Source of the DNA: Forficula auricularia | Taxonomy: Eukaryota > Arthropoda > Insecta > Dermaptera > Forficulidae | NCBI GenBank assembly: GCA_024734495.1 | Contig: JALMQS010000851.1 | Coordinates: 62,001 to 126,000, forward strand | Direction: 5' to 3' | DNA length: 64,000 nucleotides | Shown here: positions 4,331 through 54,000 of the stretch, one piece after another | Numbering within the stretch: the stretch's first letter is position 1 | Layout: each line of letters opens with the position of its first letter | Translations under genes and position numbers: made by a program | Notes under the pieces: generated by a model | Told to the model about the DNA's origin: nothing | Seen by the model: the letters and a program-made list of their open reading frames with translations, nothing else | Databases searched by the model: none

Positions 4331-4613
4331 AGAGGCGGCTGTGGGTCAGTGGTTAGAGTGTAGGGTCGCTGGCCTTAAATACGCTGGTTCGAGACTGAGT
4401 CTCGGCAGATATTTGCAGTCGCCTCCTCTTGGAAAGCAATGGCAACCTACCAATAGCATAATTGCCTAGTAACCTCTCCAAACTAGCCGTTCGGAACCGG
4501 CGTTAAAAAGTAGGTCCCGTATATCTGTGTAAAAACAGCTAAACACACCAAGCACAGGTATATGTGGAGAGGAGCCAAAACGTCAGGGAGACCTGATATG
4601 GCACTTAAAGAAG
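4331..4613 (+). mobile_element. tRNA-derived SINE (SINE2), copy a, with 10-bp duplication
   Basis: The head GAGGCGGCTGTGGGTCAG continues as GTGGTTAGAGTG (box A) and CTGGTTCGAGACTGA (box B), a Pol III promoter derived from a tRNA. The body continues for about 200 bp and ends CACTTAAAGAAG. The element is flanked by a perfect direct repeat, ATACATATTT, at 4321-4330 and 4614-4623. This is the target-site duplication expected for LINE-mobilised SINEs and fixes both ends. A reverse-oriented copy lies at 43513-43794. Confidence 0.85.
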
Positions 4614-4652
4614 ATACATATTTCAGGTTTTTAGCCCATCATCAGTGAGCTT
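4612..4652 (-). ncRNA. hammerhead-like motif B1 (decayed)
   Basis: Minus strand reads CUGAUGA (4645-4639), then UGGGC, an A-rich loop, CC and UGAAAU. The core CUGANGA is intact, but the nucleotide before GAAA no longer pairs and A15.1 is followed by U. It mirrors motif B2. Probably inactive alone. Confidence 0.5.
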
Positions 4653-4654
4653 AA

Positions 4655-4705
4655 AAAAAAACTCCTGATGATGGTCTAAAAACCCGAAATATGTATAGGT
4701 ATTCA
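4655..4705 (+). ncRNA. hammerhead-like motif B2
   Basis: CTGATGA at 4665-4671, then TGGTCTAAAAACCC and GAAATATGTA. Stem II is short (GG with CC). The GAAAU variant distinguishes family B from families A, C and D. It faces away from B1 across a centre of about 15 bp. Confidence 0.55.
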
Positions 4706-4889
4706 AAATAAAACTCCAAAAATATTATTAAAAGAATTTTTTAATTTTTAAAATTTTTATTTTTACCTTGTGGAACACCACTATAACCCATTAAAAAACT
4801 CTTTTGTTTAATATATTTCACTATAAACCAACACCGCTTTCCCTAAATGTTAATAATAATGAGAATACTTTAATACACACATTTTGTAA

Positions 4890-5367
4890 TAAAAGCGGAT
4901 TTAAAGAAAGCATGTGCAAATTATGAAACTGGGTTGAATGATGAAGAGAAACGTGACATTGATGGAAATGGTCTCTTAAACGAGCTCCAAATATTTGCAC
5001 CTATGCTGACCTCAGCCCAAAGCCTTGTCTTTCATCACAAAAATGGCTATGTGGACCCATTTTCTAACGTTTTTGTAAGCTTAAGAATACTTATCACCTT
5101 ATGAGTCTTCCAGTGTCAGTGGTCAATGATGAGCGGAGTTTTTCCAAGTTAAAACTAATGAAGACTTATTTATTTAAGATCAAACTGAATGAACTAGCTT
5201 TGATAGCAATTGAAAATTACATTCTCAATGAAGGGATGCAATCAATAATAAGGGATTTTGCAAAATTGAAAGCCAGAAGTCTCTTTATAACATACATTTT
5301 TGATCAACAACTAAAACAAGAATATCTAATAATTAACATAATTCTATCAGTAGAAAATACTCTGTAA
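4890..5367 (+). pseudogene. hAT transposase C-terminus, frameshifted
   Basis: The final frame (5101-5367, 88 residues) contains LPVSVVNDERSFSKLKLMKT and ELALIAIENY, which resemble the hAT C-terminal dimerisation domain (typically 'PVSVASAERSFSKLKLIK' in related proteins, including ZMYM1-like transposases). Upstream, a second frame (about 4893-5100) reads NGLLNELQIFAPMLTS and DPFSNVFVSLRILIT before a stop at 5101. The family sequence runs LRILIT straight into LPVSV, so one small indel near 5098 separates the frames. The N-terminal zinc finger and RNase H-like catalytic core are absent. It is a dead 5'-truncated remnant; no terminal repeats were identified. Confidence 0.8.
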
Positions 5368-5590
5368 ATATGGTTATAAAGAAACATACCAATTTACCTA
5401 TTTTGAAGAAAATTGCAATTGTAATAATTATTTGCAGAATTTGTGTCCATTAGTTCATTACAATATACTACTTGTTCAATATAATTGAGGGGGAGAGAGG
5501 TTACACTTAAAAAATGTCTAGATTCGGCCCTAATATTAAAATCAGGAAATTTACTTAATTTGATGTCTTTATTAATATCATAATTAATGC

Positions 5591-5640
5591 TTTTAACTAA
5601 GCAATAAATTACCGAGCAACGCTCGGTGTTCCAGGTACTA
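5591..5640 (+). repeat. short perfect hairpin, ACCGAGC/GCTCGGT
   Basis: A 7-bp GC-rich stem, ACCGAGC AAC GCTCGGT, is followed by GTTCCAGGTACT. The same hairpin and trailing box occur in reverse at 19925-19955, and CTCCAGGTACTG is seen again near 21170. A hairpin just inside an end resembles Helitron 3' termini, but the CTRR end is not present, so the element type is open. Confidence 0.4.
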
Positions 5641-8600
5641 TATTATAAAATATCATCACGGCCAACAAAGCTTCAACTATGAAAGATAATTCTTTTGTCT
5701 TCTTCAATAAAACATAATAATAATTATCCGTTCTGTATGAACATAAATCTCACTAAGAAAATTACTGAGAAATCTTCTCCGATTTGGTCATAATGTGGTG
5801 TTCTGTCGTTTACCAAGTTTCTATCTTACATGACTCTTTGAAAAGTATAATTTTCTTATTTACTGAACTTAAAAGGGAATCACTAAATAAATACTTGAAA
5901 TACATGAAAAATACTTTTCATTTCTTAGCTATCCTGCAATTTCAAATCCATGAGAAAAAATATTTTCTAGAATTTATAATATTGTTAGGAAATTTATTTT
6001 ATTCTCATTTATTTGGAAGTTTGTAAAAATAAGAATAATTTTTAATTATAAACTTTTTTATACAATTGATTTAATGTACAATTAAGCTAATATTTAGTTC
6101 CATTTCTGTTTGTATATTGTATAAAAATGACCTCATGATCTACGGTTAAGGACGTGTTCAATTCTTAAGCATTCTCCACAAAGCATGATATACACGATAT
6201 GATTTGATCTAATTAATTTGATCGAACGCAATGCCTATATCTATTCCTGATTTAATTCTCATGTTGGAAGATGTCAGTTACTCTGATCGCCTGACGACTT
6301 ATTTAATTGTAATTTTATCAAAATTTTTAGCAATAGTGCGCAACATATTAAATCTTATCTAACAAAAATCTAAATCCAAGTAATTGGTACAATCAATGTG
6401 ATTTCTGACCTTGTTTTTGTATGAATAATTTTCCTATGTTAGGTGTCAGGTCAGATGTTGTCAGTAACAAAAAATCGGATTTAGGTATGTTGTTCATTTA
6501 GAGATGTGGGGTATTTATTTTTTACAAAATTTAGATTTGAAAAAAACTTTTCATATGTTGATTCAAAACTACTTAAAAATTGAAAAGTCAGGTCAGTTAT
6601 TGCAGGAAAGTCTTCCTTTGGCAACAATTTCCAGAAATCTCCATATTTTTCTTAAGAAGTTTGTAACTTTGAAGATATTTTTTCGACAAAAGGGTTTGGG
6701 CAGCCTTGCTAAAGTCCATTTAGTCAATTCCTATCTAGAACCGTATGATAATTTTATCAAGTGTTTATGGTGTTAGTGCAGGAGCCGGATTACATATACC
6801 CAAATTTTTTTCTGCCGCGACTTATGGTAGTTCCTGAAAATTGCACACTTACCTATAAATAAGTAATTTTTAGATTCCCGGTACTCAAAAATTGTTCTAA
6901 AAATAGCATCTAAATGAAATTTGAATGATAATTCTTCACTAATTCTACATATTCATAAAAAAATGGCATAAGTTACTAGCAATTTAATGACATTAAAATT
7001 GGTACAAATCACTAAATTTTTAGCCCTCATCTAAAAAATTCTTAAGAATAGGTATTGCAATTTTTCCTATTATATATGTTTAAATGTTTCAGAAACTCTC
7101 TTTATGTCTCTTCATTTAATTACAAAGAAACATTCAGGGTTTCCAAAAGATCCCTGGAGTTTTACTTTAATTAATCTTGTGGTTTAAATAAGCATTGGCC
7201 GTTTGTTACTTCATTTCTCTGATAATATTTTACTAGGGTTGAAGCGAGGGGTGAACCGCGATCTAATATCGTGTAGGTACACCTACTTCCACTTTCATTT
7301 CCAAATATTTCCACAAAATTCCACTACTTTAAATACTAAAATAATTCCACATAATTCCAAAGATGTTTACAGTGTACATACACCTAATTCCAATCGCATT
7401 AGGGGGGTAATTGATTTCAGCTCGACTGAACAGACACCGTTTACTTGAATATTTCATTTTTTATTATTGTTTTTTTTTGTTAGAAATGCACAAAATATGG
7501 AAAGTTCGTTCTAGTGCCTAAATGTTTGATTTTCCAACGATCTCTTTAGATTTTGGACTTTCTTCCTGTTGAGAAATGCAAAAAATAAGATAAGTAATCG
7601 AATTGTTATACATATAAGGAAGACCTTGAATGATTGTAGTCAATGATCTAAATTTTGATATGAGTTTGAATTGATATCTTCACCTCTCTGCCAAGTTTTA
7701 ACTTTCTAGTTCAAATAGTTCGATGGCAAATCCCTAAAAAGTGTGGAAAGAATACTGAGATTTGAAAAAGTTTTCACTCCTTCCTTCAATTAGGTTATAG
7801 ATTTTAATGAAATCAGTACAATATGTGAAAATATGTTGGTGAATTTAAGAATGACGCAAAGTATGGTTAGTGGTGATATCATAATCAGTTCTCCCTCAGG
7901 GTGAGTGAGGGTCCTGAAGCTCACGTAGGGTCACTTCAATGGTGTCATCTGACTTGCGGGCTTCGACATGGTACATACACATTCCTCTATCTCTATAAGT
8001 ATAGGCAAATTTGTTTGGTTTGTGCCCAAGGCTTTTAGACCACACCTTGGATCGGGCTTGAAACTAAAGCTACCTCACATCATTCTCTTAGCGATTACTG
8101 CGCTTCAAGAAACCATCATTTGCGATTCTCCTCGCGATCGCTTCCGAAAGAATTAATCGAATCCTTTTGAAAATAAATCTCATAAAAAATAGAATAACTT
8201 CTACAATAAATATGAATATTTTTATAACACCATTAAAATACATTATTCTGTCAATATTTCAAACAATTTAATATTGTATACAACTTAATAGATTTTTCTA
8301 GTTTCTTATTGATTTTTTAATAAAGGTGTCAAAGCCCAACATCACTATTCTAATAAATGATTATCTTAAATATTTTTGGAATTTTAATGATGATTTCTGA
8401 ATAACATTCTTTTGAGGATCAAAGATAAAATAAAAAATCCATTAAGAATTCTACACCTACCTAAAACCTTTCACAAAATGAAGAGAAACAAATTCTTTCC
8501 CTTAGGCTTAGCTAAAAGTTCACTTCTAACTATCAGATTAATACCTGCAGTTCCGTAACTAGTATTTGAAAAGCTATGTGCTAGGTATTGATTTCGGGCC

Positions 8601-8925: not shown

Positions 8926-8930
8926 GTTTC

Positions 8931-9034
8931 TTCACCTGTAGTCCTCGGACCACTAATGGTCTTTGATAAATATTTATTGGTTTTTAAAATTCGTAAAATC
9001 GTCGTATATCTTCTATATTAATAAAATAGAGTAA
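8931..9034 (+). mobile_element. hAT-like left terminus, partner not found
   Basis: CAGTGTTTCTTCACCTGTAG followed by GTCCTCGGACCACTAATGGT has the look of a hAT terminus (CAGTGNTT... with a GGACCACTAGTGGTCC palindrome). No matching right end was found; the family C palindrome begins about 100 bp downstream. It is either a truncated copy or one interrupted by family C. Confidence 0.5.
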
Positions 9035-9128
9035 TTGAATATAATGGAAGGCAGCCCAGAGGTAGTGAGGAAAGAAAAAATTAACACATATCAAATAAGG
9101 TGTAATTTATTGGAATCCTTCCTCCTTT

Positions 9129-9184
9129 CCTTTCAAACCGACGTTTCGGAGGATTTTTCCCTCCTTCTTCAGGGTTTCAAAGGG
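9129..9184 (-). ncRNA. hammerhead-like ribozyme C1 (left arm)
   Basis: Minus strand: 5' flank CCCTTTGAAACC, core CUGAAGA (9172-9166), one extra A, stem II GGAGG/CCUCC with a 7-nt GAAAAAU loop, GAA, palindromic ACGU, C17 (9140), then GGTTTGAAAGG. The flanks pair as stem I: AAACC with GGUUU, one mismatch, CCUUU with AAAGG. All conserved hammerhead core positions are present; the single departure is the extra nucleotide between A9 and stem II. Predicted cleavage is after C17. Confidence 0.75.
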
Positions 9185-9326
9185 TCAATGAATGAAACAA
9201 ATAAAATGTTTCCTTCTTCTCTCCACAGTAATTTTCAAAAACTTTCTTCATTTTTAACAAAAGCATAGAAAAACAATTTTTTTTCCTCCTTTTCTTAATT
9301 ACATTTTATTTGTTTCATTCATTGAC

Positions 9327-9381
9327 CCTTTGAAACCCTGAAGAAGGAGGGAAAAATCCTCCGAAACGTCGGTTTGAAAGG
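9327..9381 (+). ncRNA. hammerhead-like ribozyme C1' (right arm), best-preserved copy
   Basis: 5' flank CCTTTGAAACC (9327-9337), core CTGAAGA (9338-9344), extra A (9345), stem II GGAGG (9346-9350) with CCTCC (9358-9362), GAA (9363-9365), zero-loop palindrome ACGT (9366-9369), C17 (9370), and 3' flank GGTTTGAAAGG (9371-9381). Stem I is five pairs, one mismatch, five pairs. In the known hammerhead fold A15.1 pairs with U16.1 and cleavage follows H17. With stem III only two pairs long and self-complementary, activity would be expected mainly as a dimer. Confidence 0.78.
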
Positions 9382-9558
9382 AAAGGAGGAAGGATTCCAA
9401 TAAATTACACCTTATTTGATATGTGTTAATTTTTTCTTTCCTCACTACCTCTGGGCTCCCTTCCATTACATTCAATTAAAATTTCTACCAGTCCGTCTCT
9501 CTCCAGAGAAAATTTCGTTGCAAAAAAAATATAATATTAGTATTTGGTAGGGTTATAG

Positions 9559-9950: not shown

Positions 9951-10168
9951 GTCTATAGAAGCGTAAGTATGGTAACTTTAGTTAGTTAGATATAGATTAC
10001 AGTGGTACCCCTTGAATCTTTGGACAAGAAGATTGGCTCATTTTTTAATACAATACAAGTACAAAATAAATTTACAAAAATATAAGGTGATACGTTAATC
10101 ATAATATAAATAGCACTAGATGAAGGAGGAGCTATCAGCCAAAGATCGAATCACTGGGTTCAATAAAA

Positions 10169-10227
10169 CACCTTTAACAAAACGTTTCGCCCTGAATTTT
10201 ATTTGGCCATCTTCAGTTAATTAGGAG
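10169..10227 (-). ncRNA. hammerhead-like ribozyme D1 (left arm)
   Basis: Minus strand: CTCCTAATTAA, core CUGAAGA (10216-10210), extra U, stem II, GAAAC, GUU site. Stem II is GGCC with GGGC rather than GGCC, so one pair is lost compared with D2. The stem I outer block CCU pairs with AGG as in D2. Confidence 0.65.
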
Positions 10228-10300
10228 TTATACACAAAATTTTTTTTATTTTTGACAAGGCTTGGTTCGATCATAAATGTGTACCGCATTTTGTGTATAA

Positions 10301-10359
10301 CTCCTAATTAACTGAAGATGGCCAAATAAAATTCAGGCCGAAACGTTTTATTAAAGGTG
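10301..10359 (+). ncRNA. hammerhead-like ribozyme D2 (right arm)
   Basis: CTCCTAATTAA, core CTGAAGA (10312-10318), extra T, stem II GGCC/GGCC around a 12-nt loop, GAA (10340-10342), ACGT palindrome, H17 = U (10347), then TTATTAAAGGTG. Stem I pairs UAA with UUA, has an internal loop of 3 and 4 nt, then CCU with AGG and one more G-C. An internal loop in stem I is the usual site of the tertiary contact with loop II in natural hammerheads. Confidence 0.72.
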
Positions 10360-10439
10360 TTTTATTGAACCCAGTGATTCCATCTTTGGCTGATACCTCC
10401 TCCTTCATCTAATACAGTTTCATCACAGCCACGAACTCT

Positions 10440-10815
10440 AACAATATACATAATATAAATATACAAGAAATACAAAATATAAGGTGACATATCAATCATA
10501 ATATAAACATACAAGATATCAAATGAATGTTAGAACATTTAATTTATAATTTAAAATATACTTTTCTTTTAAAACAAAATCAAGTTTGTGTTCTTGCTGA
10601 TTACAAGGATTTCAGTCTCAAATATTTTATATTGTTTTATTTAACCGACTGCTGTGTTTAGTAGTTTATGAATTACAAATTATGATTTCTTTACTACAAA
10701 ATGATGGTTTCTCAAATAAAACTGTCTAATCTGAAATACAGAGACTGGACTGAAAAGAACTCGTTTATATTTAGGTGAATATCTTTGCCACAAGATATAA
10801 AATTGTTTGACTTGG
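10440..10815. other. no gene seen; AT-rich DNA
   Basis: AT-rich with direct short repeats of ATATAAACATACAAGA type around 10440-10520. No other feature was recognised. Confidence 0.35.
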
Positions 10816-14592: not shown

Positions 14593-14924
14593 AAGTAGCT
14601 CTCTACGATTACAATCTTTATCTAACGGCGACCTTAAACGATCATTTCATGTTAATAACACGATTTAGTGAGTTAATTCAGAGGATACGAGGCGCTCACG
14701 TCAGTCGAAAAGCCGAGAAGCGTGCGGACGAGATTATAAACATTTCTTCTGCAAACAGTATAAATAATTTTCTAAAATAATATTAGTTATTGACACATGG
14801 CGAAGCTTCTTACTGCCAATCTATTTGCAATATTTATTCACTGAAGGAGACAATAAAAGAGTATGTCTTCTGCATCACTTTATTACAATTGATTCACAGG
14901 AATTAATGTATGAATTTCTGTGAA

Positions 14925-14980
14925 TTAATTGTAATAGATTGATGAAGAGGGAAAGCTCTCGAAACTATAGACTTCTGCTG
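14925..14980 (+). ncRNA. hammerhead-like motif A1 (C3 to U)
   Basis: TTGATGA (14939-14945), extra A, stem II GAGGG/CUCUC (with one G-U), GAAAC (14961-14965), UAUA loop, then GAC. The core has U in place of C3, and U16.1 is A, so it is expected to be inactive. Stem II and spacing are intact. Confidence 0.55.
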
Positions 14981-15009
14981 GAATAATACATTTTGTAATT
15001 TATATGTAA

Positions 15010-15055
15010 CGAGAATATAGTTTCGAGGGCTTTGCCCTCACTTTGACACATCAAC
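15010..15055 (-). ncRNA. hammerhead-like motif A2 (decayed)
   Basis: The minus strand keeps a perfect stem II, GAGGGC/GCCCUC with an AAA loop, followed by GAAAC UAUA, but the CUGANGA core is replaced by TTGATGTGTCAAAGT. It is a dead copy. Confidence 0.45.
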
Positions 15056-15069
15056 TCCTGTAAATCAAT

Positions 15070-15121
15070 TGTAATAGACTGATGAAGAAGGCAAAGACCT
15101 CGAAACTATAGTCTCATTATA
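15070..15121 (+). ncRNA. hammerhead-like ribozyme A3
   Basis: TGTAATAGA, core CTGATGA (15079-15085), extra A, stem II GAAGGC against GACCTC (four of six pairs), GAA, stem III AC-UAUA-GU, C17 (15113), then TCATTATA. The flanks pair as GA/UC, an internal loop, then TGTAA with TTATA (including one G-U). All invariant core bases are present. Confidence 0.68.
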
Positions 15122-15189
15122 AATAAATTAAAAATTTATAATTCCATCAGAAGACACACTCTTTTATTGTCTCCTTCAATTCATAAAAA

Positions 15190-16180
15190 TTCTGCTACTC
15201 TCGGCAAAATGAAACTTTCAATTTAATATTTATTCAATAAATTTATCACGCTGATTATTTATTAAACATTAATTGATTCTTATTATAATTTCCGTCCATA
15301 ATTTGTATTAATTTGAAAGTTTATATTAGGAAAATAAGGACAAGTTTTTATGCGTGACTTTTTTATATATTCACCAACGTTTCGGCGACTTTGCCGACTT
15401 CTTCAGGGCTTCAAATAGTCGTCTCACACATTCGTCTAAATTTTCTTATTATCCTTGTTACCATTGAAGGCCATAAGAACACAATTTTCAAAAAATATTT
15501 GGCACATTCACAAAAAACAAAATTTTTCTTTCTTTTCTTTTTATATTAACAATTTCATTAATACAAAACAGAAATCACATATATAGAATAAGGCAACCCT
15601 GTTTTTTAAACCAGAATAGAATATTTTTTCTCGGTTTTATCCTTACATACAGAAATCTCAAATTCGAATAAACTAAACTTATACATATTTTTTGCACCGC
15701 AATGTACTTATGTTAGAACAAGGATGAAAATAAATATTTATGAAAGAACAATATTTCTTTTTGATTAATAATTTTATGACTAAATTGGGAGCCCACAGGT
15801 AATTTTTACTAAAATATGCAAATGAAATATGATTTATTAATTACATATATTATTTACAGTGCGTCATCAAGTTATGTACTTTCATTTGAGAGAACATTTT
15901 ATTTTTTTGTAAATGTCTAAGCGTTCAAATTAAAAGACGAATAAATCAAAATGAGTTTTCATATAACGTACTCGATGTAAACTTTTGCATTTATCTCAAT
16001 ATTACATCTCATAATCATAACATTAAGAAACAAGGGTAAAAATATTTTCTAAGCTTATTTGCACTTTAAATAGTATTATTCAAAATAATTTAAAGTATTG
16101 AAACTGAATTTTCAATTACGTAAATGAAGTTACATTTAACTCAAATTAGTTTTTTTTTTATAATAATAAAATATGTTTCT
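15190..16180. other. AT-rich stretch carrying one hammerhead-like motif
   Basis: Apart from motif G at its left end and the fragment CTGCTACTCTCGGCAAAA at 15191-15210 (shared with family A), the segment shows no gene or terminal repeat. Confidence 0.4.
15355..15420 (-). ncRNA. hammerhead-like ribozyme G
   Basis: Minus strand: TATTTGAAGCC, core CUGAAGA (15406-15400), extra A, stem II GUCGGC/GUCGCC with an AAA loop (five of six paired), GAAAC, ACGU palindrome, U17, then GGTGAATATA. Stem I starts GCC with GGU. Farther out, GACTATTT pairs with AAAAAGTC (seven of eight) across a larger internal loop. It appears as a single arm without an inverted partner nearby. Confidence 0.68.
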
Positions 16181-16235
16181 TTCTGTTACTCCTGAAGATG
16201 GGTTAGCCACTCGAAATATATATATATCGAGATTA
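16180..16235 (+). ncRNA. hammerhead-like motif H
   Basis: CTGAAGA (16192-16198), extra T, GGG...CUC stem II (with a G-U), GAAAUAUAU. It resembles family B in GAAAU instead of GAAAC, and (TA)n follows directly. The stem I flanks do not pair convincingly. Confidence 0.45.
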
Positions 16236-16399: not shown

Positions 16400-16560
16400 A
16401 AGAAAATATTATTTTTATTATAGACAAAAGGATCAGCCGGGGTTCGAACCCGGGATCTTTGCATGTGCGATGCGATGCTTTGTCATAAGAGCCTTAGTTC
16501 TATATCCTCTTAGCCACTGATCCCCGAACTCAAACAAATTCCTAATGTCTATATGAATTA
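16400..16560 (-). mobile_element. tRNA-derived SINE (SINE1), copy a
   Basis: Minus strand: GGGGATCAGTGGCTAAGAGG (box A region), a middle with AAAGCATCGCATCGCACATG, box B GGGTTCGAACCCCGGC, then TGATCCTTTTGTCTATAATA. Copies are at 16605-17835 (split) and 21945-22150. It lies head-to-head with copy b only about 45 bp away. Confidence 0.8.
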
Positions 16561-17349: not shown

Positions 17350-17550
17350 ATTTCTAGCAATAATTATTAATTGAAAAGTTTTGCCGAGAGTAGCAGAGCT
17401 GTTGATTCACAAAGAGAATCAAAGAGGTTGTCCTCTGCTTGATGCAAATAAACATACACACATATATATCGAAATGATATATATATATATATTATTTATT
17501 TGTTTGAGACTATAGTTTCGAAGACTTGGTCTTCATCATCAGTCTTTTTT
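17350..17550 (-). repeat. family A unit with hammerhead and downstream body
   Basis: On the minus strand: hammerhead A4, TCAAACAAATAAATAAT, a (TA)n tract, TGTGTGTATGTTTATTTGCA, TCAAGCAGAGGACAACCTCT, TTGATTCTCTTTGTGAATC, AACAGCTCTGCTACTCTCGG and CAAAACTTTTCAATT. This order recurs at 49895-50470, 52085-52200 and 53820-54000, and so defines the family A body. Confidence 0.75.
17500..17550 (-). ncRNA. hammerhead-like ribozyme A4, perfect stem II
   Basis: Minus strand: core CUGAUGA (17542-17536), extra U, stem II GAAGAC/GUCUUC with CAA loop (six perfect pairs), GAA (17519-17517), stem III AC-UAUA-GU, C17 (17508), then TCAAAC. It preserves every invariant hammerhead core base. The first two stem I pairs are GA/UC, then AU-rich pairing is possible. 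Confidence 0.75.
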
Positions 17551-17835: not shown

Positions 17836-18320
17836 ATGTACGTTAATAATTTTTAACCCATTACAGTAAATTTTACTAAAATGATTAGTAAATTCGAATT
17901 AAAGCTCGCAACAGCACTGCCCCTCACCACCCCTTCTAATATTATCATTTAAAATTTAAAGGAAAAATATTTAAGATCTGTACATTTTACGGGATCCATT
18001 TTCATTCTCTAATCTATATGTGATTATCTATTGATTTGATTCATCACTTTTCTCAGAATTTTACTAGTATTGCATTTTATTTGAAACTCATATCCTCCCT
18101 GTTTCAATATTGTTTGAAATTTGTCATTATAACGCTTGTATGTTTAGCTTTTTTCCCTGGGTTTCATTTTAAATCACTTTTAGATTTTTATTTTGTAAAG
18201 TTATTAGATGTGCCCATAGTTATTGGGATTAATAAATAGAGATCTAATGAAGAAAAATTGATGAAAAAACATGGACGATTCAAGGCATAAATCTAGATTG
18301 CTGTTAATAAAAATAAATAT
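17836..18320. other. no gene seen; AT-rich DNA
   Basis: AT-rich between two mobile elements. A 67-codon frame at 18036-18239 is rich in Phe, Leu and Ile and has no recognisable domain. Confidence 0.4.
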
Positions 18321-18439
18321 ATATAGGGTGTTCCAGAAAGAAATTCATTTTTGAAAATAGAAAGAAAACAAAACTATTATATTTAAAAGCGTTTAATCTT
18401 ATACAATATAACGTTTATGAAATGTAATTTTAGTTTTTG

Positions 18440-18760
18440 AAAATTAAATCATCAAGATGATATCCTTGGCTGTTGCGACACTCTTCCAAACGGGCACGAA
18501 AATTTTGAAAAACTTTAGTAGGATTTTCTTTTGAAATGGCTTCCATTTCTTGCTGAATATTCAGCTTCAATTGCCGCAATGTTGTCGGATTATTAGTGTA
18601 TACTTGCTTTTAAGGTGTCCCCATAAAAAGAAGTCTGCTGGACTTAAATCGGGACTCCTCAAAGACCAGGTTATGTCACCCCTCCGTGAAATCAGTTTCT
18701 GAGGAAACATATCCCTTATCACGAGTATGCTCTCATTCGAATTTGGAAAAATCGCGAGGT
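18440..18760 (-). pseudogene. mariner-type transposase, left arm remnant
   Basis: Read on the minus strand, pieces of the frame give FPQKLISRRGDITWSLRSPD, LSPADFFLWGHLKSK and, after a frameshift near the KSKYT segment, NPTKVFQNF, RARLEEC and GYHLDDLIF. The SPDLSPADFFLWG block includes the last catalytic Asp of a DDE/D transposase. Only the third catalytic region and the C-terminus remain; the N-terminal DNA-binding domain is missing. Confidence 0.75.
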
Positions 18761-19090
18761 TACAATCGAAACACATGCTTTCAGCAGGATGGGGCCACGT
18801 GTCACACTTCGAATGAGAGCATGCGCTTGATAAGAGATATGTTTCCTCAGAAACTGATTTCATGGAGAGGTGACATAACCTGGTCTCTGAGGAGTCCCGA
18901 TTTAAGTCCACCTTCTTTTTATGGGAATACCTTAAAAGCAAGGTATACGCTAATAATCCGACAACATTGCGGTAATTGAAGCTGAATATTCAGCAAAAAA
19001 TGGAAGCCATTTCAAAAGAAAATCTTACTAAAGTTTTTCAAAATTTTATTGCCCGTTTGGAAGAGTGTCGCAACAGCCAATGACGTCATC
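18686..19090 (+). pseudogene. mariner-type transposase, right arm remnant
   Basis: Plus-strand frame 18686-18979 contains NRNTCFQQDGATCHTS, the middle catalytic Asp block, and MFPQKLISWRGDITWSLRSP, DLSPPSF. The expected Asp after LSPP is lost by a small deletion, followed by a frameshift. The tail reappears as QKMEAISKENLTKVFQNFI and ARLEECRNSQ. The first part of the frame reads into the left arm and is an artefact of the palindrome. Confidence 0.75.
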
Positions 19091-19229
19091 TTGATGATTT
19101 AATTTTCAAAAACTAAAATTAAATTTAATAAACTTTATATTGTATAAGATTAAACGCTTTTAAATATAATAGTTTTGTTTTCTTTCTATTTTCAAAAAGA
19201 AATTTCTCTCTGGACCACCCTATATATTA

Positions 19230-21944: not shown

Positions 21945-22150
21945 GGAACGAAGAAAAGATTATTTTTATTACAGACAAAAGGATTAGCCGGGGCTCGAAC
22001 CCGGGATCTTTGCATGTTTACTGCAATGCTTTGTCTTAAGAGTATTAGCTCCTATATCCACTAAGCTACTGATCCCCGAACCCAAACTAATACCTTTTGT
22101 CTATATGAATTATGGAATTTCTTTTTTTAATCCTCTCCTCGTTCATTTTT
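21945..22150 (-). mobile_element. tRNA-derived SINE (SINE1), copy c
   Basis: Minus strand: GGGATCAGTAGCTTAGTGGA, box B GGGTTCGAGCCCCGGC, then TAATCCTTTTGTCTGTAATA and a shared tail around CTTCGTTCCCTAAATTTA. Same order as copies a and b. Confidence 0.8.
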
Positions 22151-29745: not shown

Positions 29746-30349
29746 GACGCTCGACAGGCTTCGTGTTTTGAAATGGAGAAAAATCAATTTCAGATATATA
29801 AAAGTTCAAATTACCGAAGGTAGCAGACTTGAAATTTCTGATGAAATTACAAAATTTTCTTCGAAATCCGAACTACTATGGATATTTTTTTATTCTCAAG
29901 GGGTTGAATACAGTCCGTATGACATGATTTCTTTAGAAATTTAAAGTCTGGTATAGGTATACCATCGTCAATTTTAGCTTTTATACTTATTTAGAGGATT
30001 TTGAAGAAATTTAAAACTCTAAACACTCACCAATGTAATATACTTATTTAAACTAAAATGTTTAAATCTAGAACAACTATTTCGCGAAATTTTACATATT
30101 AAATCTTTGATTGAAATATTTATCGTTTTATTGTATATTTATATTTATATATATCAGTTGCGTGCGGTCCATGTATGCTGTGGATGCTCCGCATTCTTAA
30201 AATTTCAAAACGCTAAGAATATTTTCATACTATATCCTATATCATAAAAACGTAATGTTAAATTTGAAAAATATCGAAAAATTCTGCGTTTATGGATGAA
30301 ATTTACAAATATTGTTTGGTGAATCTTATCCATAATTTAATTAGCTTAC

Positions 30350-31960: not shown

Positions 31961-32269
31961 CTAACATTTATACCTCAACCTTCGTGAGAAAGATTATTTA
32001 TTGAAATGGAATAGAGGCGGGTTCTTCAAATACCAATAATGTTATTGAATTTTTAACTATTTTGTTTTTTACAATTTCACTATAGCCCTTTAACGAATAC
32101 TATAATTCGATTAATGGAAAAAATCACACATGGTCTTCTTTTTAATGTAAATATACACATTTAAACAATTATATATATATTAGTATATACAGATTTATCA
32201 AAGAAAAAAAAATTATTGATTGTATTATATTAAAAAATACTAATCTTTAACAAAACAATCAAGAACTCG

Positions 32270-32330
32270 TTTGTTCTGAATCAAAAGTTTCGGGAGAATT
32301 TCTCCCTTTTTAATGGTAAATTTTTTAAAA
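32270..32330 (-). ncRNA. hammerhead-like motif E1 (core lost)
   Basis: Minus strand: CCATTAAAAA, GGGAG AAATT CTCCC stem II (five pairs), GAAAC. The CUGANGA core is eroded to TTAAAAA, so it is inactive. Confidence 0.45.
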
Positions 32331-32469
32331 ATAAAAAAATAAAGTTGTTTCCTCTAAAATTTAGAAGGCAACACTAAGATAGTAAATATTTTATATGTAC
32401 AATTGTCTTTATAAAAATATTTAATACCTTAGTGTTGGTTTCTAAATTTTAGAGAAGTAACTTTTTTTT

Positions 32470-32530
32470 TTAATTTACTATTGAAAAAAGGGAGAAATTC
32501 TTCCGAAACGTTTGGTTCAGAATAAACGTT
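32470..32530 (+). ncRNA. hammerhead-like motif E2 (core eroded)
   Basis: TTGAAAA (32481-32487) in place of CTGANGA, then a GGGAG...CTTCC-type stem II, GAAAC (32505-32509), GUU. G8 has become A, which abolishes activity in known hammerheads. Confidence 0.45.
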
Positions 32531-32579
32531 TTCATTATTGTTTTGTTAAAAATTTGTATTTTTTAATATACAGATATAT

Positions 32580-32760
32580 AAATAAATAAAAATATTATAA
32601 AAATCAATCTTCAAACGGTTATTAAAGTCCAAACTTTTCGGGAGAATTTCACCCTTTATCAATGGAATTTTAATTTATGAATTGTAAAAAATGAAGAAAA
32701 AGAAAAATAAGTTCCTTTATGTAATGAATTATACAGCAACACTAATCAAATAAATATTTT
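32580..32760 (-). repeat. family E single arm with motif E3
   Basis: Minus strand: CCATTGATAA, GGGTG AAATT CTCCC, GAAAAGTTTGGACT. Here the core is TTGATAA, which together with E1 and E2 implies an ancestral CTGATGA. The arm lies next to the complete family E palindrome. Confidence 0.5.
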
Positions 32761-32839
32761 GAATTTAGATAATGATATAAATTGTCTTGGAGATGAAATT
32801 ACTTTTAATTCAAATAAAAAATATAAATATAAATTTATT

Positions 32840-33170
32840 TGCACGAAATTTTCTCTGGAGAGAGACGGACTGGTAGAACTTTTAATTGAAAGTAATGGAA
32901 GGCAGCACAGGGATAGGGAGGAAAGAACAAATAAACATATATCCAATTAAGGTGTAATTTATTGGATTCCTTCCTCCTTTCCTTTCAAACCGACGTTTCG
33001 GAGGATTCTTCCACTTGAAACCCTGAAGAATGAGGAAGAATCCTCCGAAACTTCGGATTTCAAAGGAAAGGAGGAAGGAATCAATAAATTACACCTTAAT
33101 TGGATATATGTTAATTTTTCTTTCCTCATTACCCCTGGGCTGCCTTCCATTACCTTCAATTATAAATATA
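32840..33170. repeat. palindromic family C element, copy 2 (centre deleted)
   Basis: Outer arms match copy 1 (GAGAGACGGACTGGT, AATGGAAGGCAGC, AAGGTGTAATTTATTGGATT and complements). The centre has a deletion that removed the core of the left ribozyme; only CGACGTTTCGGAGGATTCTT remains there. Confidence 0.72.
33011..33070 (+). ncRNA. hammerhead-like motif C2' (cleavage site mutated)
   Basis: CTTGAAACC, core CTGAAGA (33023-33029), stem II GAGG...CCTC, GAAAC, then TTC where GTC is expected. The G16.2 change breaks stem III, so cleavage would be impaired. Confidence 0.55.
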
Positions 33171-33179
33171 AATTATTTT

Positions 33180-39895: not shown

Positions 39896-40120
39896 AATAT
39901 ATACCATTTAAGTATCAAATATTAATAATAAATTTCATTCACAAAATAAGATTATAAATTGTCCATAATAATGAAAATTCACCCCTTGTTGGAAACCATA
40001 TTTTTTAACCTGTATAAAACTCAATACCTATACTTAATATTCCAAAAACGAAGCAGATTTTAAATTAGTATATTATTATAAAATTTTCCAGAACTTAAGT
40101 GACTTAATTTTTTAATTATT

Positions 40121-40640
40121 TTTTTAAATTGAAAGGTTTTTTTAGTCACATACTAATAAAAGACAATCATTTCAATTAATTATTATTATTTATTTTATTG
40201 ATTCATCAAACAGTTTCGGTCACCACAGTTTGACCATTTTCAGTAGTACTAAAAATTGGAAAAATGAAAAATTTCGTAAATTTTTTTTAAACAATTACTT
40301 ACATAATACAAAAAATATAGAAATTTGAATTTATACACACAATCTCGCTCAAGATCTGGAAATTGTCACTTTGTATCTATACATAAATCATCCTTAACTA
40401 GAGTATTAACATAGATATTTCACACAATATAACAATCATATATAGCAATAATTCATAAAAAAAACATTTATCTTTGAATAGAATCTATTTTGAACTGATG
40501 AACAATTGAAAAATTATTTTTATTTTCATGGTGATGAAAGAAACTGTTTCAATAAAATAAATAATAATAATTAATTGAAATTATTATCTTTTATTAGTTT
40601 GTGACTAAAAAACCTTTCAATTTAAAAATAAATAAATTAG
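40121..40640. repeat. foldback with a hammerhead-like motif
   Basis: Arms 40126-40215 (TTTTTTTAGTCACATACTAA and on) and 40545-40630 (complement, TTAGTTTGTGACTAAAAAAC) pair closely. Each arm carries a GAAACTGTTT motif at its inner end, pointing outward. Confidence 0.68.
40201..40256 (-). ncRNA. hammerhead-like motif with perfect stem II, G8 lost
   Basis: Minus strand: CUGAAAA (40243-40237), extra U, stem II GGUCA/UGACC (five pairs), GAAAC (40217-40213), UGUU. G8 is replaced by A, so it is likely inactive. The mate at 40495-40550 keeps CTGATGA and GAAAC, but with a longer unpaired insert between them. Confidence 0.5.
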
Positions 40641-40819
40641 TATATTTGGCAAATGAAAAGGAAAAAAATATCCTTTATTCATTCATGATTGAGCATTTTG
40701 TTTTCCATTGTAATCCAACGGTTTTTTCGAACCATAATAATTATTCTTTTCTCCTCCACTAATGATTCTCTTGTTTCATTTATCTTACTCTAATTTGTTA
40801 TTATTCATTTGTGTTGCAG

Positions 40820-40850: not shown

Positions 40851-41039
40851 GTGAGTCATCAGATTTGTTTCATTTCAAACTTCTCTATAAATCTTCTTAT
40901 TTTCAAAATTTTCTTAATTGACTAATGGGAATTAAATCCTTCATTTTTTTCGAGAAACTAAAATAAGTTTTAAGAATCAACAAGAAATCATTACAATTAA
41001 AATATGTATAAGTAGATTTTTTAAAACATATTGTTAGAG

Positions 41040-41230
41040 TTCGTGGCTGTTTTTAGACTGTATTAGATGAAGGAGGAGGTATCAGCCAAAGATGGAATCA
41101 CTGGGATCAATAAAACACCTTTGATAAAACGTTTCGGCCTGAATTTTATTTGGCCATCTTCAGTTAATTAGGAGTTGTACACAAAATGCGGTACACATAT
41201 GTGATCGAACCAAGCCTTGTCAAAAATATT
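41040..41230. repeat. family D single arm
   Basis: GTTCGTGGCTGTTTTTAGAC, then GATGAAGGAGGAGGTATCAG, GTACACAAAATGCGGTACAC and GATCGAACCAAGCCTTGTCA are shared with the 10.1-kb palindrome, but only one arm is present here. Confidence 0.75.
41116..41174 (-). ncRNA. hammerhead-like ribozyme D3
   Basis: Minus strand: CTCCTAATTAA, core CUGAAGA (41163-41157), extra U, GGCC/GGCC stem II, GAAAC (41135-41131), GUU. Same sequence as D2 except in the 3' strand of stem I. It keeps all core residues. Confidence 0.7.
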
Positions 41231-41470
41231 TTTTTTTAGCTTCATGTAAATTTATAATGTGCCTGGACCCAAAAGTTTCAGAATGAAAGTAAAACATTAT
41301 TGAAAAACATGAGCATCTAGTAAATCACTCTCTTTTCTCAAAACTATTATATATTTACTTCATTCCTCCTCTTGAACCATTATAATTTTGCGAGAAAAAT
41401 CTTATAAACACAGATAATAATTTTTAATCAGAGGAAAAAAGGAACAATTAAACACCGTGTTAAAACATGC

Positions 41471-41522
41471 GACCAATTTCAACGTTTCGCCAATTTATTG
41501 TGGCTTCATCAGGCTCTTGATC
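41471..41522 (-). ncRNA. hammerhead-like ribozyme F1 (left arm)
   Basis: Minus strand: GATCAAGAGC, core CUGAUGA (41512-41506), extra A, stem II GCCA/UGGC around an 8-nt loop, GAA, ACGU palindrome, U17, GAAATTGGTC. Stem I has one C-G pair, a 3 by 3 internal loop, then GAUCAA with UUGGUC (six pairs, one G-U). All core positions are intact. Confidence 0.75.
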
Positions 41523-41660
41523 ATATTTTAAAAACACTCGTCATTTCTTTTTTTACTAATAAGAATATATATATATATACCAATATGAGCACACTTATTT
41601 ATACAACACCATTGATTATTTAGAGTAGCAATGGATTCAACCAGACCAGCTGTATACCCT

Positions 41661-42131
41661 CGACTGATTCAAATCAAATGGAACAACGACGTGATTACAA
41701 TGACATTTACTTCCTGCTTAAACTTATTTCTGGGAAAATCGTGTGTCCAAAAATTCTATCTAGGCTAAATTTTAGAATTCCATCACATAGCACGAGATCT
41801 CAAGATGCCTTTGTAGTTCCACATCACTCGACTAACTTCGGTAAAACCAACGCCATTGACAGAATTCAAACACTAGCAAATAAATACTCGACCAATCTTG
41901 GCCTCTCCAGCACAACTCCTCACCAACTAAAAAAAATCATCTTAAAACTATCAGCCACATTGTAAAAATCACTTCAGTGTAATAAGTTTTTTCCCCTGAT
42001 ACCTACCTGTTATTTTATTATATTCATATTGTTTTAATATTGTATCCTGTATATGTTTCTTTTTCTGTATTGGACATCTTGTCCGTAAAACTAGCTAAAC
42101 CAGCTAAATAAATAAATAAATAAATAAATAA
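41661..42131 (+). pseudogene. LINE C-terminus with (AAAT)n tail
   Basis: The 95-residue frame 41678-41965 contains RRDYNDIYFLLKLISGKIVC, NFRIPSHSTRSQDAFVVPHH and STNFGKTNAIDRIQTL, the C-terminal module that follows the reverse transcriptase in many insect LINEs (typically 'F.VP...TR....F..P...TN'). It ends at a stop, then an AT-rich 3' UTR and seven or so AAAT units at 42104-42131. It is a 5'-truncated insertion at the centre of palindrome F. It belongs to a lineage different from the 33.9-kb copies by tail type. Confidence 0.75.
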
Positions 42132-42279
42132 ATCCTTTTGAATCAGTCGAAGGTATACAGCTGGTCTGGTTGAATCCATTGCTACTCTAGAATAATCAAT
42201 GGTGTTGTATAAATAAGTGTGTTCATATATATGTATTCTACATAGTAAGAAAAGAAATGACAAATTGTTTGAAAAATTT

Positions 42280-42331
42280 GATCAAGAGCTTGATGAAGCC
42301 ACAATAAATTGGCGAAACGTTGTAATTGGTC
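42280..42331 (+). ncRNA. hammerhead-like motif F2 (right arm, C3 to U)
   Basis: GATCAAGAGC, core TTGATGA (42290-42296), extra A, GCCA/TGGC stem II, GAAAC (42314-42318), ACGT palindrome, U17. Identical to F1 except that C3 has become U, a change known to abolish cleavage. F1 and F2 form the divergent pair. Confidence 0.68.
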
Positions 42332-42399
42332 GCATGTTTTAACACGGTGTTTAATTGTTCCTTTTTTCTTCTGATTTGTCACATCTAATTCTGATAATG

Positions 42400-42850
42400 G
42401 AAATGAATAATAATTTTTAATGATTACGAATTTGCTTTCTCATATTTAATAGTTTTAAATCCCATTTGCTTATACATTATTGTTACTTGTATTCTTTTGA
42501 CTAAAATATTCTAAACTATAGTATTAAATATTTATGAGCTTTTTCTGAAAATATCCATCTATTCCAATGTAAATAAACTGATCGTTCGATTCGTTTCCTT
42601 CTGAAAAAGACAATGACTATCATCGTGATTCTTATACCCCGAGGGCTTCAAGCTTCATTCGACTGCTATTCGTGTATAATTTTGTATTTATAAACCTACG
42701 CATTAGAGACGGATATTTTTCCCCATCTTATTTCAATTTATAATATTTGCCCAATTGCTTTCCAAGTCAAGGGCTGCGTGTGCCATTTCGTTGATTTCTT
42801 TTGTCTGCTAAATGGAGCATTTTGCCAAAACTTCATTCCAAATAAATTCC
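42400..42850. other. no gene seen; AT-rich DNA
   Basis: AT-rich with a more complex part after 42590. No feature was recognised. Confidence 0.35.
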
Positions 42851-44060: not shown

Positions 44061-44329
44061 TGTGCAAACACTGGTGGTTTGGTACCTACACTTTTTGCAG
44101 CCTGGCAATTTTGTTGAGAATAGAGCAGATGTAAAGCAAGCACACCATCATATCTGTCCAAGAGCAAATAATTGAAAAACCATACCTCAAAAAAATTCCA
44201 AAAAAAAGTTTGTATTTTGGTTTTGAATTGAGGCAGGTACTCTTGCTCTTTTCTAAGTAAAGTTAATTACGTGACCCCGCTAGTCGCTACTTATTGTTTC
44301 AAGAATGAAAGATTTAAAAAGTTATTATA

Positions 44330-44440
44330 AACATCAATATATTTCGTGTTGTTAACTCATTATCAGGAGTACATGGACTGAGTACATTTACACCTGATAA
44401 TGAGTTGACAACTCGAAATATATTGAGATTTATAAGAACT
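44330..44440. ncRNA. divergent pair of decayed family B hammerhead-like motifs
   Basis: Plus strand: CTGATAA (44394-44400), T, GAGTTGACAACTC stem II (five pairs), GAAAUAU. Minus strand, 44340-44366, has the mirror CTGATAA T GAGTT...AACAC GAAAT. In both, G8 has become A, so the mutation precedes the inverted duplication or was copied between arms by gene conversion. Confidence 0.5.
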
Positions 44441-44459
44441 TTTTAAGGACGGTGGTTAA

Positions 44460-52195: not shown

Positions 52196-52227
<32 letters not shown>

Positions 52228-52260
52228 ATATATATATATATATAACATATATAATATATG
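52085..52260 (-). repeat. family A body fragment and (TA)n tract
   Basis: TTGAAAAGTTTTTATTTTGC, CAAAGAGGTTGTCCTCTCGC and TTGATGCAAATAAACATACA belong to family A; the (TA)n tract at 52185-52257 follows. The hammerhead end is missing, and the family E arm begins at once. Confidence 0.7.
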
Positions 52261-52339
52261 TAGAAAAGGAAAAAATTTATTAATTGTTTATATAAATGAA
52301 AAATACAAATCTTTATAAAAACAATCCAAAACACGTTTA

Positions 52340-52392
52340 TTTTAAAGTCAAACGTTTCGGAAGAATTTCTCCCTTTTTCAATGGTCAATTTT
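52340..52392 (-). ncRNA. hammerhead-like motif E4 (core eroded)
   Basis: Minus strand: CCATTGAAAAA, GGGAG...CTTCC-type stem II, GAAAC, GUU, TGAC. The core is TTGAAAA, as in E2, so the erosion is shared within the family. Confidence 0.45.
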
Positions 52393-52466
52393 TTCAAAAA
52401 ATAAAAAAATAAAAAGTTGCTTTTCTTGTTTCTCTAGAATTTAGAAAGCAACACTAAGATATTAAA

Positions 52467-53533
52467 TCTATATATATAAAATTAAGATGTTGTCTGTACA
52501 TTGCTCCAATTCACGCCAAATTTTGGTTGCACACGTTTCAAGCAAAGTTATGACCGAAAATACCCTCAACAAAATTCCTGTCTGTCTGTCTTGTCTGTTT
52601 CAGTGGTTTCCGAAAAGTTGCTCACGATTCACGTAAAAACGGCTGAAATGATTATTATGAAATTTGATATTTACATCAGATGTCTTCTAACTTACGTTTT
52701 TAGCTATATAACGTTTGGATATTTTGACCCCAGAAGGGGGTTTGGGGGAGCGCACGAATGAAAATTATCAAATGACTCCTAAACTATTAACCCTATGGCA
52801 AATTTTATAATAAACAAAGTTGTAGGAGATGTGATTTCTGACAACTTTTGTTTAAAAAAATTTCCCCAAAAAACCACCCAAAAAGGGGGGAGGGTGAAAA
52901 TATGTAAATTCTTGCCCTTGGAGCAAACTCAACCAAATTTTGTATACATAATCTCTGGGCCTCTAGAGAGCTAGAAATGCAAAAACTAACCACTCAAAAT
53001 GGGGGGGGGGTCAAAAAATGAAAATTCTTTCTCATGGGCTAAACTCAACCAAATTTTGTATACATATTCTGTGGGTCACTACAAGGCTAGAAATTTAAAA
53101 ACTGGGTGCGGAGGGTGGGTGCGGGTGCAGGGGGTGGTGCGAGGTGGAGTCCAGGGGGATAGCGGGGGTGTGGTGCGCAGGGTTGGAAGGCACGGGGTGG
53201 ATGGGGTGCGGGGTCCGAGGTGTGGGTGCATGGTGCGGGGGTGGGGGCGCTGGAGGGGTTGCGGGGGTGGAGTCCAGGGGGATAGGTGGGAGTGTGGTGC
53301 GCAGGGTTGGAGGGCACGGGGTGAATGGGGTGCTGGGTCTGAGGTGGGTGGGGGTGGGGTGGGGGTTAGTGGGTTAGGGTGGAATGGAGTGCTGGGCTGG
53401 TGGTGTGGGGGCGGGGGCTGGGCATGGTGCGGGGGGTGGGGGTGCTGGGTGGGTTTCGGGGGGTGGTGGGTGGGAGTGGTGGGTGAGGATGGGGTTCGAG
53501 TGCTAGGGGTCCAGGGGCGTGCCTTGCAGCTAG
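52467..53533 (+). mobile_element. Helitron-like non-autonomous element
   Basis: Starts TCTATATATATAAAATTAAG next to A and ends GCAGCTAG before T, the TC...CTAG termini and A/T insertion expected of Helitrons. A short hairpin (AGGG...CCTT) lies about 5 bp inside the 3' end. The interior has CTGTCTGTCTGTCTTGTCTG and an AAACGGCTGAAATGATTATT block typical of widespread arthropod non-autonomous Helitrons, then a G-rich segment. The boundaries are confirmed by the empty family E centre at 32.4 kb. No Rep/helicase is encoded. Confidence 0.8.
53100..53525 (+). repeat. G-rich minisatellite inside the Helitron-like element
   Basis: About 425 bp of GGGTGNGG-type irregular repeats, extreme in strand asymmetry and able to form G-quadruplexes. 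Longer partial repeats recur, for example GGTGCGCAGGGTTGGA (about 53172 and 53296) and GGAGTCCAGGGGGATAG (about 53143 and 53269), which are 124-126 bp apart. Open frames across it (52999-53547 plus and two on minus) are composition artefacts. Confidence 0.75.
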
Positions 53534-53819
53534 TATTTTATAAATAGACAATTGTACAGATTGTCTTGGTGACCAGATTATATAAATATTTATGAAAAAA
53601 TTTATTTTTTGCTAAAAATTTTTTCTAAACATTCGAAAAACAAACCATATCTGACCTTTTATTAATCGAATTTTTGGTATTTAAAATTTCGATCATTTCC
53701 AAAATTAATCTTTTTCCAAGTTATATTCTAGATTTATTTTTAGAGAAAAATAAATTTTCATAAATATTTATATTTTTATTTAAAGGTAATCTAGTCACCA
53801 AGATAATCTTTTCAATTAC

Positions 53820-54000
53820 AATAGAAAGACTGATGATGAGGGCTAAGCCTTCGAAACTATAGACTCAAATAAATAAAAAATATATATATATATATATACA
53901 AATATACATACCTATATATATTTTATATATACCTACGTGTGTGTATGTTTATTTGCATCAAGCAGAGGACAACCTCTTTGTTTCTCTCTATAATAAAAAT
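53820..54000 (+). repeat. family A unit with hammerhead A6
   Basis: CTGATGA (53830-53836), extra T, stem II GAGGGC/GCCTTC (one G-U), GAAAC UAUA GAC, TCAAATAAATAAA, (TA)n, then TGTGTGTATGTTTATTTGCA and CAAGCAGAGGACAACCTCTT. U16.1 is A, so cleavage is unlikely. Plus orientation, opposite to the unit at 52.1 kb. Confidence 0.68.

Follow-up and report, generated by a model that had tools for sequence, protein, structure and literature searches.

Here, we analyze a 64,000-nucleotide (nt) stretch of the genome of Forficula auricularia (contig JALMQS010000851.1, positions 62,001 to 126,000; hereafter the window), which a reading of the sequence alone had described as colonized by several families of ribozyme-bearing retroelements. 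We find that the hammerhead-like motifs of this window very likely belong to short, end-only copies of Penelope-like elements (PLEs), and that the RNA they specify would likely cleave itself after H17, most likely when two motifs pair through a palindromic stem III. Judged from sequence, we put the probability of this reading at about 0.9. The colonization claim is thus supported and can be specified: the elements are very likely Penelope-like, family D by its open reading frames (ORFs) and the other families by the architecture of their insertions. The copies form head-to-head pairs in which one arm carries a short tail and the other does not, a new observation which suggests that each insertion involves two coupled starts of reverse transcription.

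The motif consists, in order, of stem I, CUGANGA, a single A or U, a stem II that begins with a G-C pair, GAA, a palindrome, H17 and the closing strand of stem I. The order of hammerhead elements that had been claimed (CUGANGA, stem II, GAAA, UH) is present in 14 intact window cores, and exactly one extra base (A or U) precedes stem II in all eight window motifs whose stem II is uninterrupted. A9 and H17 lie 24–30 nt apart in the 12 copies measured. Stem III is minimal, as predicted, but it is not a hairpin; it consists of a short palindrome, ACGU or, in family D, ACUAUAGU, with H17 directly after it. A palindrome that lacks a hairpin loop would properly form stem III only between two molecules or between tandem motifs.

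These motifs are far more frequent in the window than expected. CTGANGA occurs 46 times, against 19.6 expected, and none of 100 shuffles reaches this count. The pattern CTGANGA-N{6,30}-GAAA returns 21 rows, corresponding to 19 places, against 4.0 expected. Judged by their surroundings, 14 of the 19 were accepted as hammerhead-like: 4645 (-), 4665 (+), 9172 (-), 9338 (+), 10216 (-), 10312 (+), 15079 (+), 15406 (-), 16192 (+), 17542 (-), 33023 (+), 41163 (-), 41512 (-) and 53830 (+). The places at 29838, 31925, 37068, 40495 and 51824 have the appearance of chance or decay and were set aside. When the stem II between core and GAAA must run unbroken for 4 base pairs (bp) or more, ten window matches are obtained, eight with exactly one inserted base and two chance-like; 200 shuffles average 0.5 matches, never exceed 3 and do not favor a one-base insertion. 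Stem II is short or interrupted in the intact cores at 4645, 4665, 10216, 15079, 15406 and 33023. A search that permits C3U and G8A and demands CGAAA[C/T] finds 14 places, 13 of them with one inserted base (control, 0.05 places per shuffle, maximum 2, 60 shuffles); a looser version, with no C before GAAA, finds 17 matches versus 2 in the reversed control. Scoring stems III and I as well yields 12 places with a score of at least 16, versus 0.4 per shuffle (8 shuffles). Counting damaged copies, the window holds about 25 motifs (14 intact cores and about ten with degraded cores or stems) in about ten families, A to J, which bears out the sequence-only estimate of about twenty motifs in at least six families. 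The same reading held that the families have no body sequence in common. This is mostly so, except that F, G and I are weakly similar to one another and E resembles A around the motif.

Covariation in stem II, also claimed earlier, is found both in the window copies and in samples taken from parts of the genome with no stem requirement. In 11 window copies, 87.9% of stem II cells are paired and 10 cells carry double changes, neither value being reached in 500 shuffles. Over a cross-family set of 18 rows, 98.6% of cells are paired; since these rows were selected by a pairing criterion, we place more weight on two sets gathered without one. Among 84 family-D-like copies collected with no stem requirement (19 stem types, two of them probably chance matches by their look), 20 double changes are paired and 4 unpaired, where 3.2 doubles would be expected if changes were independent. 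Stem I is another matter. Families A and C outscore every mismatched partner; E does so for 20 of 22, B for 17 of 22 and the others for fewer. The pairing claimed for stem I is well supported in only two or three families (A and C, with E fair).

Searches of the 1.06-Gb assembly that contains the window show how common this class is. The core followed by CGAAAC, with no stem requirement, matches 103,970 times, versus 394 times for the reversed pattern. Stem statistics were taken from the first 100 matches listed, which lie on four contigs and were selected on the core. Among these, stem II reaches 4 bp or more with one inserted base in 80 cases, with two in 1 and with none in 0; the mean stem is 4.7 bp at one inserted base versus 0.02 bp at none, and 13 matches have no 3-bp stem. 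Pairs 2–4 form in 80 of 105 cells over the 35 distinct stems of this list, as compared with a mean of 44 and a maximum of 62 in shuffles. At the inserted position, 71 have A, 28 have U and 1 has G. The fetched loci and the window together yield 105 distinct strict motifs (66 of them the same family-D sequence), of which 104 carry one inserted base and the remaining one carries two. A one-base insertion is hence the rule for this class among the samples examined. Ten 6-kb places chosen blind gave six strict matches, with 1 in a relaxed reversed control: four one-insertion motifs, one motif of canonical spacing (in L079) and one with a two-base insertion (in L076). As all four one-insertion motifs fall in a single place, L082, local density is uneven, and the L079 and L076 matches may be due to chance.

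Family D provides the link to coding elements. The first 27 bases of its motif at 17508..17542 (-) constitute a pattern with 7,228 matches in the genome, versus 0 for the reversed pattern. Separately, the genome contains 3,423 candidate loci for a GIY-YIG endonuclease, at least 150 of them above the Pfam cut-off, with open frames of up to 864 residues. In 22 of the best 30 GIY-YIG loci, a motif lies on the same strand 396–876 nt downstream. The best 30 loci contain 28 strict motifs, each with a single extra base; their reversed sequences contain 0. Sense motifs up to 1.2 kb downstream of GIY-YIG in these loci are of the D type and a GCTGC type only; one A-type motif lies 1,509 nt away, and an E-like motif lies on the opposite strand in L058. 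In the tandem locus L051, three same-strand family-D motifs recur every 2,909 nt, with two 858-residue ORFs between them. The encoded protein matches RVT_1, a reverse transcriptase (RT) domain, at 1.6e-16 and GIY-YIG at 8e-6 (Pfam), and its named homologues include proteins of Parnassius (39%), Diabrotica (31–38%), Bemisia, Folsomia, Xenopus, Schistosoma and Rotaria. In L058, a GCTGC-type motif, of a kind not seen in the window, lies 614 nt downstream of a 397-residue ORF. Because the D motifs of the window are identical to those between RT and GIY-YIG ORFs, family D of the window is a PLE; on the analysis of their insertion architecture, the other window families are very likely PLEs as well. 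We also considered whether the extra U serves within a start codon. An AUG triplet is present at this point in several families, but in family D the frame stops after eight codons, and the idea was rejected for that family. Some family-D pairs (L062, L063 and L065) appear to have hosts that are themselves hammerhead-bearing elements (D-like, F-like and C-like), indicative of mutual nesting.

The majority of window motifs lie in inverted pairs, and all nine such pairs are head-to-head, that is, the arms diverge and their 5′ ends meet in the middle. The motif is closer to the inner ends of the arms than to the termini. Direct repeats flank seven of the nine pairs (A2, 14 bp; B1, 13; C, 15; D, 12; G, 13; H, 14; J, 10), whereas repeats of at least 12 bp were seen in 2 of 56 mismatched pairs and at 6 of 400 random positions. 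At B1, a 14-bp match elsewhere is longer than the abutting 13-bp repeat because the flank is a tandem repeat; the 13-bp copy touches both ends. For nine other inverted repeats of the window, the longest flank repeats are 6–10 bp (one of these is family J, and one is a pair of short interspersed nuclear elements, or SINEs). In all eight window pairs that could be measured, only one arm extends beyond the 3′ end of the other, by 33–53 nt. The two insertions of family A, A1 and A2, have both 3′ end sites in common. Ten window ORFs searched against Pfam at E up to 0.1 gave no RT and no GIY-YIG match.

The same asymmetry is seen in family D elsewhere in the genome. The first 100 family-D matches listed include 22 neighbors within 1.5 kb, 21 in minus/plus and one in plus/plus orientation, and all 21 minus/plus pairs were examined. 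Every one has a single tail of about 41 nt, on the right arm in 13 and on the left in 8, never on both or neither. Direct repeats are flush with both end sites in 17 of the 21. Measured as the longest match at the arm ends, direct repeats reach 11 bp or more in 18 of 21 pairs versus 2 of 420 mismatched pairs; the modal length is 12 bp, and the 21-bp repeat at L068 is a simple repeat. Eight loci first read as single copies were compared with L051, and seven proved to be pairs with a damaged or truncated partner and one tail each; L010 is a single tailed arm, and in L011 the tailed arm is interrupted. Taken together, one tailed and one untailed arm are found in 36/36 pairs (8 in the window, 21 of family D and 7 further). 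A subfamily marker agrees between arms in all 14 readable pairs (it is unreadable in one arm in 7), and arms within a pair are more similar than re-paired arms (0/2000 permutations). By a crude measure of extent, the tail falls on the longer arm in just 12 of 21 pairs, with 2 ties, and an association between tail and arm length is not supported.

One tail per pair suggests that reverse transcription starts twice in each insertion, once at each site and probably on the same RNA. We envision that the element protein would nick both target strands and prime one complementary DNA (cDNA) from each. The two cDNAs would start at two sites about 41 nt apart, one per arm and probably on a single RNA, and would then be joined at their 5′-truncated ends to give head-to-head arms. 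Published work on a PLE of Anolis, PAc, is in line with two starts: its enzyme begins synthesis at either of two sites and can extend both strands of the target, the start sites being no different between the strands (PMC11167929). In the strictest form of the scheme, two enzyme units, one per nicked strand, would load two start sites about 40 nt apart on one RNA. We advance this tentatively, at slightly less than even odds; the strict one-each use of the two sites is our own inference. If it is true, every insertion would be one tailed and one untailed arm placed head-to-head, and the short arm pairs would be the product itself. Hammerhead cleavage would act outside of insertion, cutting tandem transcripts into units. 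Most arms hold a whole motif, so the RNA that was copied had not been cleaved at that motif. In family I, the G8A core CTGATAA is present in both arms, which suggests that the copied RNA probably had this change already, as expected if insertion needs no cleavage. Whole motifs in the arms and the insertion of families with altered cores are easier to reconcile with a function in processing tandem transcripts, or with none at all, than with one in insertion. In Anolis, cleavage requires the element protein and is dispensable for insertion (PMC11167929).

How else might head-to-head pairs arise? In 2013, it was proposed for the Penelope elements of Adineta, from palindromes at the inverted junction, that the nascent strand primes itself, with cDNA or antisense RNA folding back at its end and copying itself (PMC3846280). 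That arms within one insertion are more alike than arms across insertions is what such a process would give. Self-priming predicts, however, that the two 3′ ends be the same or random, whereas in 17 of 21 family-D pairs they are flush with two different preferred sites, and A1 and A2 agree in both. Moreover, PLE protein can in vitro extend each of the two DNA strands (PMC11167929). We regard self-priming as an unlikely source of these pairs. It is more improbable still that they are miniature inverted-repeat transposable elements (MITEs), moved by a transposase, with the core motif as part of a terminal structure. Short non-coding inverted repeats flanked by direct repeats would suit such an origin, but MITEs should have symmetric flush ends, and here exactly one arm is longer by a tail (8/8 window pairs) and the motif sits nearer the inner arm ends than the termini; for family D, the idea is contradicted outright by the presence of its sequence beside RT and GIY-YIG ORFs. 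Nearly as improbable is an origin as metazoan retrozymes, non-autonomous repeats whose spreading form is a small circular RNA excised by hammerheads. Retrozymes resemble the present copies in having hammerhead motifs, of type I in metazoans, within short non-coding repeats; yet they are described as tandem repeats of 150–300 bp, those of invertebrates mostly with a stable helix III (PMC7229834, PMC7761336), whereas here we see inverted pairs, a bare palindrome for stem III and a 2.9-kb tandem unit coding for RT and endonuclease. On these grounds (the one-armed tail, the inverted pairs and the 2.9-kb coding unit), MITE and retrozyme origins were both rejected.

A different question is whether the motif acts as a ribozyme at all, or is conserved for protein binding or packaging without cleavage of the RNA. 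For Anolis PAc, the ribozyme is dispensable for insertion and cuts only with the protein present (PMC11167929), families with altered cores have still been inserted, and the consistent extra base deviates from the textbook core, all of which would be compatible with a non-catalytic role. On the other hand, conservation is centered on the catalytic core and on stem II pairing (the list of 100 matches being itself selected on the core), and one or two extra bases beside CUGAnGA occur in known hammerheads (PMC10085705). A purely non-catalytic role seems to us improbable, roughly on a par with self-priming.

Several observations weigh against the reading of these motifs as self-cleaving parts of PLE copies. 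Rfam hammerhead models, a search proposed with the original reading, give 0 matches in the window at the gathering cut-off and even at E up to 10, and likewise 0 in L051 and L058 at E up to 10. That the models miss this class here is likely due to the inserted base and to a stem III that is a bare palindrome; what Rfam does return is transfer RNA (tRNA) above the cut-off, and microRNA, small nucleolar RNA and a few further models below theirs. Stem I pairing across nine family representatives has no overall support (permutation p = 0.20), and stem I was therefore rejected as general support for a hammerhead fold. In energy folding, the minimum-energy fold of the family A monomer contains stems I and II, but D and E monomers favor other pairings, and for B and C shuffled sequences fold just as well. 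The candidate at L079:3160 (-) has canonical spacing, its 4-bp stem II following the core without an inserted base; it reflects chance or a different hammerhead class. The core changes of families I (G8A) and J (C3U with G8A) were probably already in the RNA that was copied. As to the coding link, D is the only family among A to J tied to an ORF, and 8 of the best 30 GIY-YIG loci have no downstream sense motif (three have antisense motifs only, two of them chance-like, and five have none). As to architecture, A1 and I show no clear direct repeats at their flanks, the repeats of L004, L013, L065 and L074 are not flush with both end sites, and the coupling of the two RT starts is deduced from end points only.

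A system of this kind, the minimal dimer-type hammerhead of PLEs, has already been published. PLEs carry minimal type I hammerheads that lack helix III, number in the thousands in many metazoan genomes and may act as dimers, findings that the same papers credit to Cervera and de la Pena 2014 and Lunse et al. 2017 (PMC7761336, PMC6155905). The motifs described here are like these in core order, in lacking a stem III hairpin, in having a palindrome suited to dimers, in their terminal-repeat site and in their high copy number. They differ in that exactly one extra A or U lies between A9 and stem II in nearly all sampled copies, and one genome alone has about 104,000 core matches. Lunse, Weinberg and Breaker reportedly counted about 150,000 hammerheads in 2017. 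An extra base between A9 and helix II is also said to have been described by de la Pena and Flores in 2001 for the hammerhead of chrysanthemum chlorotic mottle viroid, which is a viroid RNA rather than a retroelement. Known hammerhead alignments have insertions of one or two nt at most between CUGAnGA and the adjacent stems, and the extra base is therefore within the known range (PMC10085705).

Among individual elements, Poseidon PAc of Anolis carolinensis has in common with ours an ORF for RT and GIY-YIG, tandem copies, a motif in the terminal repeat and two RT start sites that define a tail. PAc is cut 26 nt after an ATG, which compares with the 24–30 nt from A9 to H17 here; in family D, a frame begun at the A9-U-G triplet meets a stop after just eight codons. 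PAc has its tail inside the ORF (PMC11167929), whereas that of L051 precedes the first ATG of the open frame. The Penelope elements of Adineta vaga resemble ours in having head-to-head inverted terminal repeats, short target-site duplications (there mostly 8–10 bp) and a tail on one repeat (there 31 bp). Their tail is called optional, in contrast to exactly one tailed arm in 36/36 pairs, and the short copies examined here are arm pairs with no intact ORF (PMC3846280). Neither the one-base norm nor the one-tail rule is stated in the titles or abstract openings found on extra-base retrotransposon hammerheads, insect or inverted-repeat hammerheads, or PLE tails.

The individual copies in the window vary considerably in structure. 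A1 (9029..9531, outer ends placed by hand through comparison with A2) is a head-to-head pair with the tail on the right arm and motifs at 9140..9172 (-), which reads CTGAAGA-A-GGAGGG..TCCTCC-GAA-ACGT-C, and 9338..9370 (+), the copy with stems I and II in its minimum-energy fold; no target-site duplication is clear. A2 (32836..33160) has a motif at 33023-33054 (+) with an interrupted stem II, its tail on the left arm and direct repeats at 32822-32835 and 33161-33174. B1 (10113..10448) carries its tail on the right arm, direct repeats at 10100-10112 and 10449-10461, and motifs at 10181..10216 (-), with one mismatch in stem II, and 10312..10347 (+), with stem II GGCC/GGCC. Family B also has a single-arm copy at 41028..41228 (-), with its motif at 41163-41128 and a 3′ end that contains the tail sequence of B1. 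The family C pair (41429..42406; repeats 41414-41428 and 42407-42421; tail on the right arm) has motifs at 41481..41512 (-), with stem II GCCA/TGGC, and 42290..42321 (+), where core C3 is changed to U. Within this pair, at 41674-42136, lies a fragment resembling the 3′ end of a long interspersed nuclear element (LINE), with an ORF remnant and AAATAAAT repeats. The family D insertion (14841..15224; repeats 14829-14840 and 15225-15236; tail on the right arm) comprises several alternating arms, with a motif at 15079..15113 (+) whose stem II is interrupted and a degraded copy at 14939; a further family D motif is at 53830..53864 (+). Families E and F are represented by motifs at 15376..15406 (-), with one stem II mismatch, and 16192..16228 (+), respectively.

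The remaining pairs belong to families G to J. That of family G (4218..4850; repeats 4205-4217 and 4851-4863; tail on the right arm) has motifs at 4645 (-) and 4665 (+), and a tRNA-like SINE is nested in its left arm at 4333-4606, with ATACATATTT on each side. In the family H pair (40075..40632; repeats 40061-40074 and 40633-40646; tail on the left arm), the motif at 40243 (-) carries G8A and the right arm is rearranged. The family I pair (44314..44446), for which direct repeats were not found, has a motif at 44394 (+) and its mirror, both with the CTGATAA core. The family J pair (32195..32565; repeats 32185-32194 and 32566-32575; tail on the left arm) has the right-arm core TTGAAAA. Considering the J copies at 32226-32570, 32629-32690 (-) and 52348-52409 (-), a TTGA[A/T]AA core is seen in three of four copies, and stem II is kept. 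By sequence, C3U together with G8A would turn the C3-G8 core pair into U3-A8, which could be either a natural exchange of the catalytic pair or decay that the copies have in common.

Other features of the window were noted as well. Palindromic pairs at 9128-9382, 10190-10338 and 32923-33122 score against models of microRNA precursors (MIR2646, E 6.8e-19) without reaching the family cut-offs; if transcribed as long hairpins, such pairs could supply small-RNA pathways. Two tRNA-like SINEs, at 16429-16523 and 21980-22075 (-), are the sole Rfam matches of the window above cut-off. A G-rich, minisatellite-like stretch at 52872-53540 has repeat spacings of 116 and 124 bp and is open in several frames. 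An inverted repeat with 285-nt arms at 18319-19227 contains fragments resembling a transposase C-terminus, and no hammerhead motif was accepted there.

Finally, a single genome with about 104,000 core matches and thousands of copies of one motif offers a natural data set for addressing how inverted PLE copies are formed and what role the PLE ribozyme plays. The one-tail rule in particular discriminates between two published ideas, self-priming and priming from both target strands.

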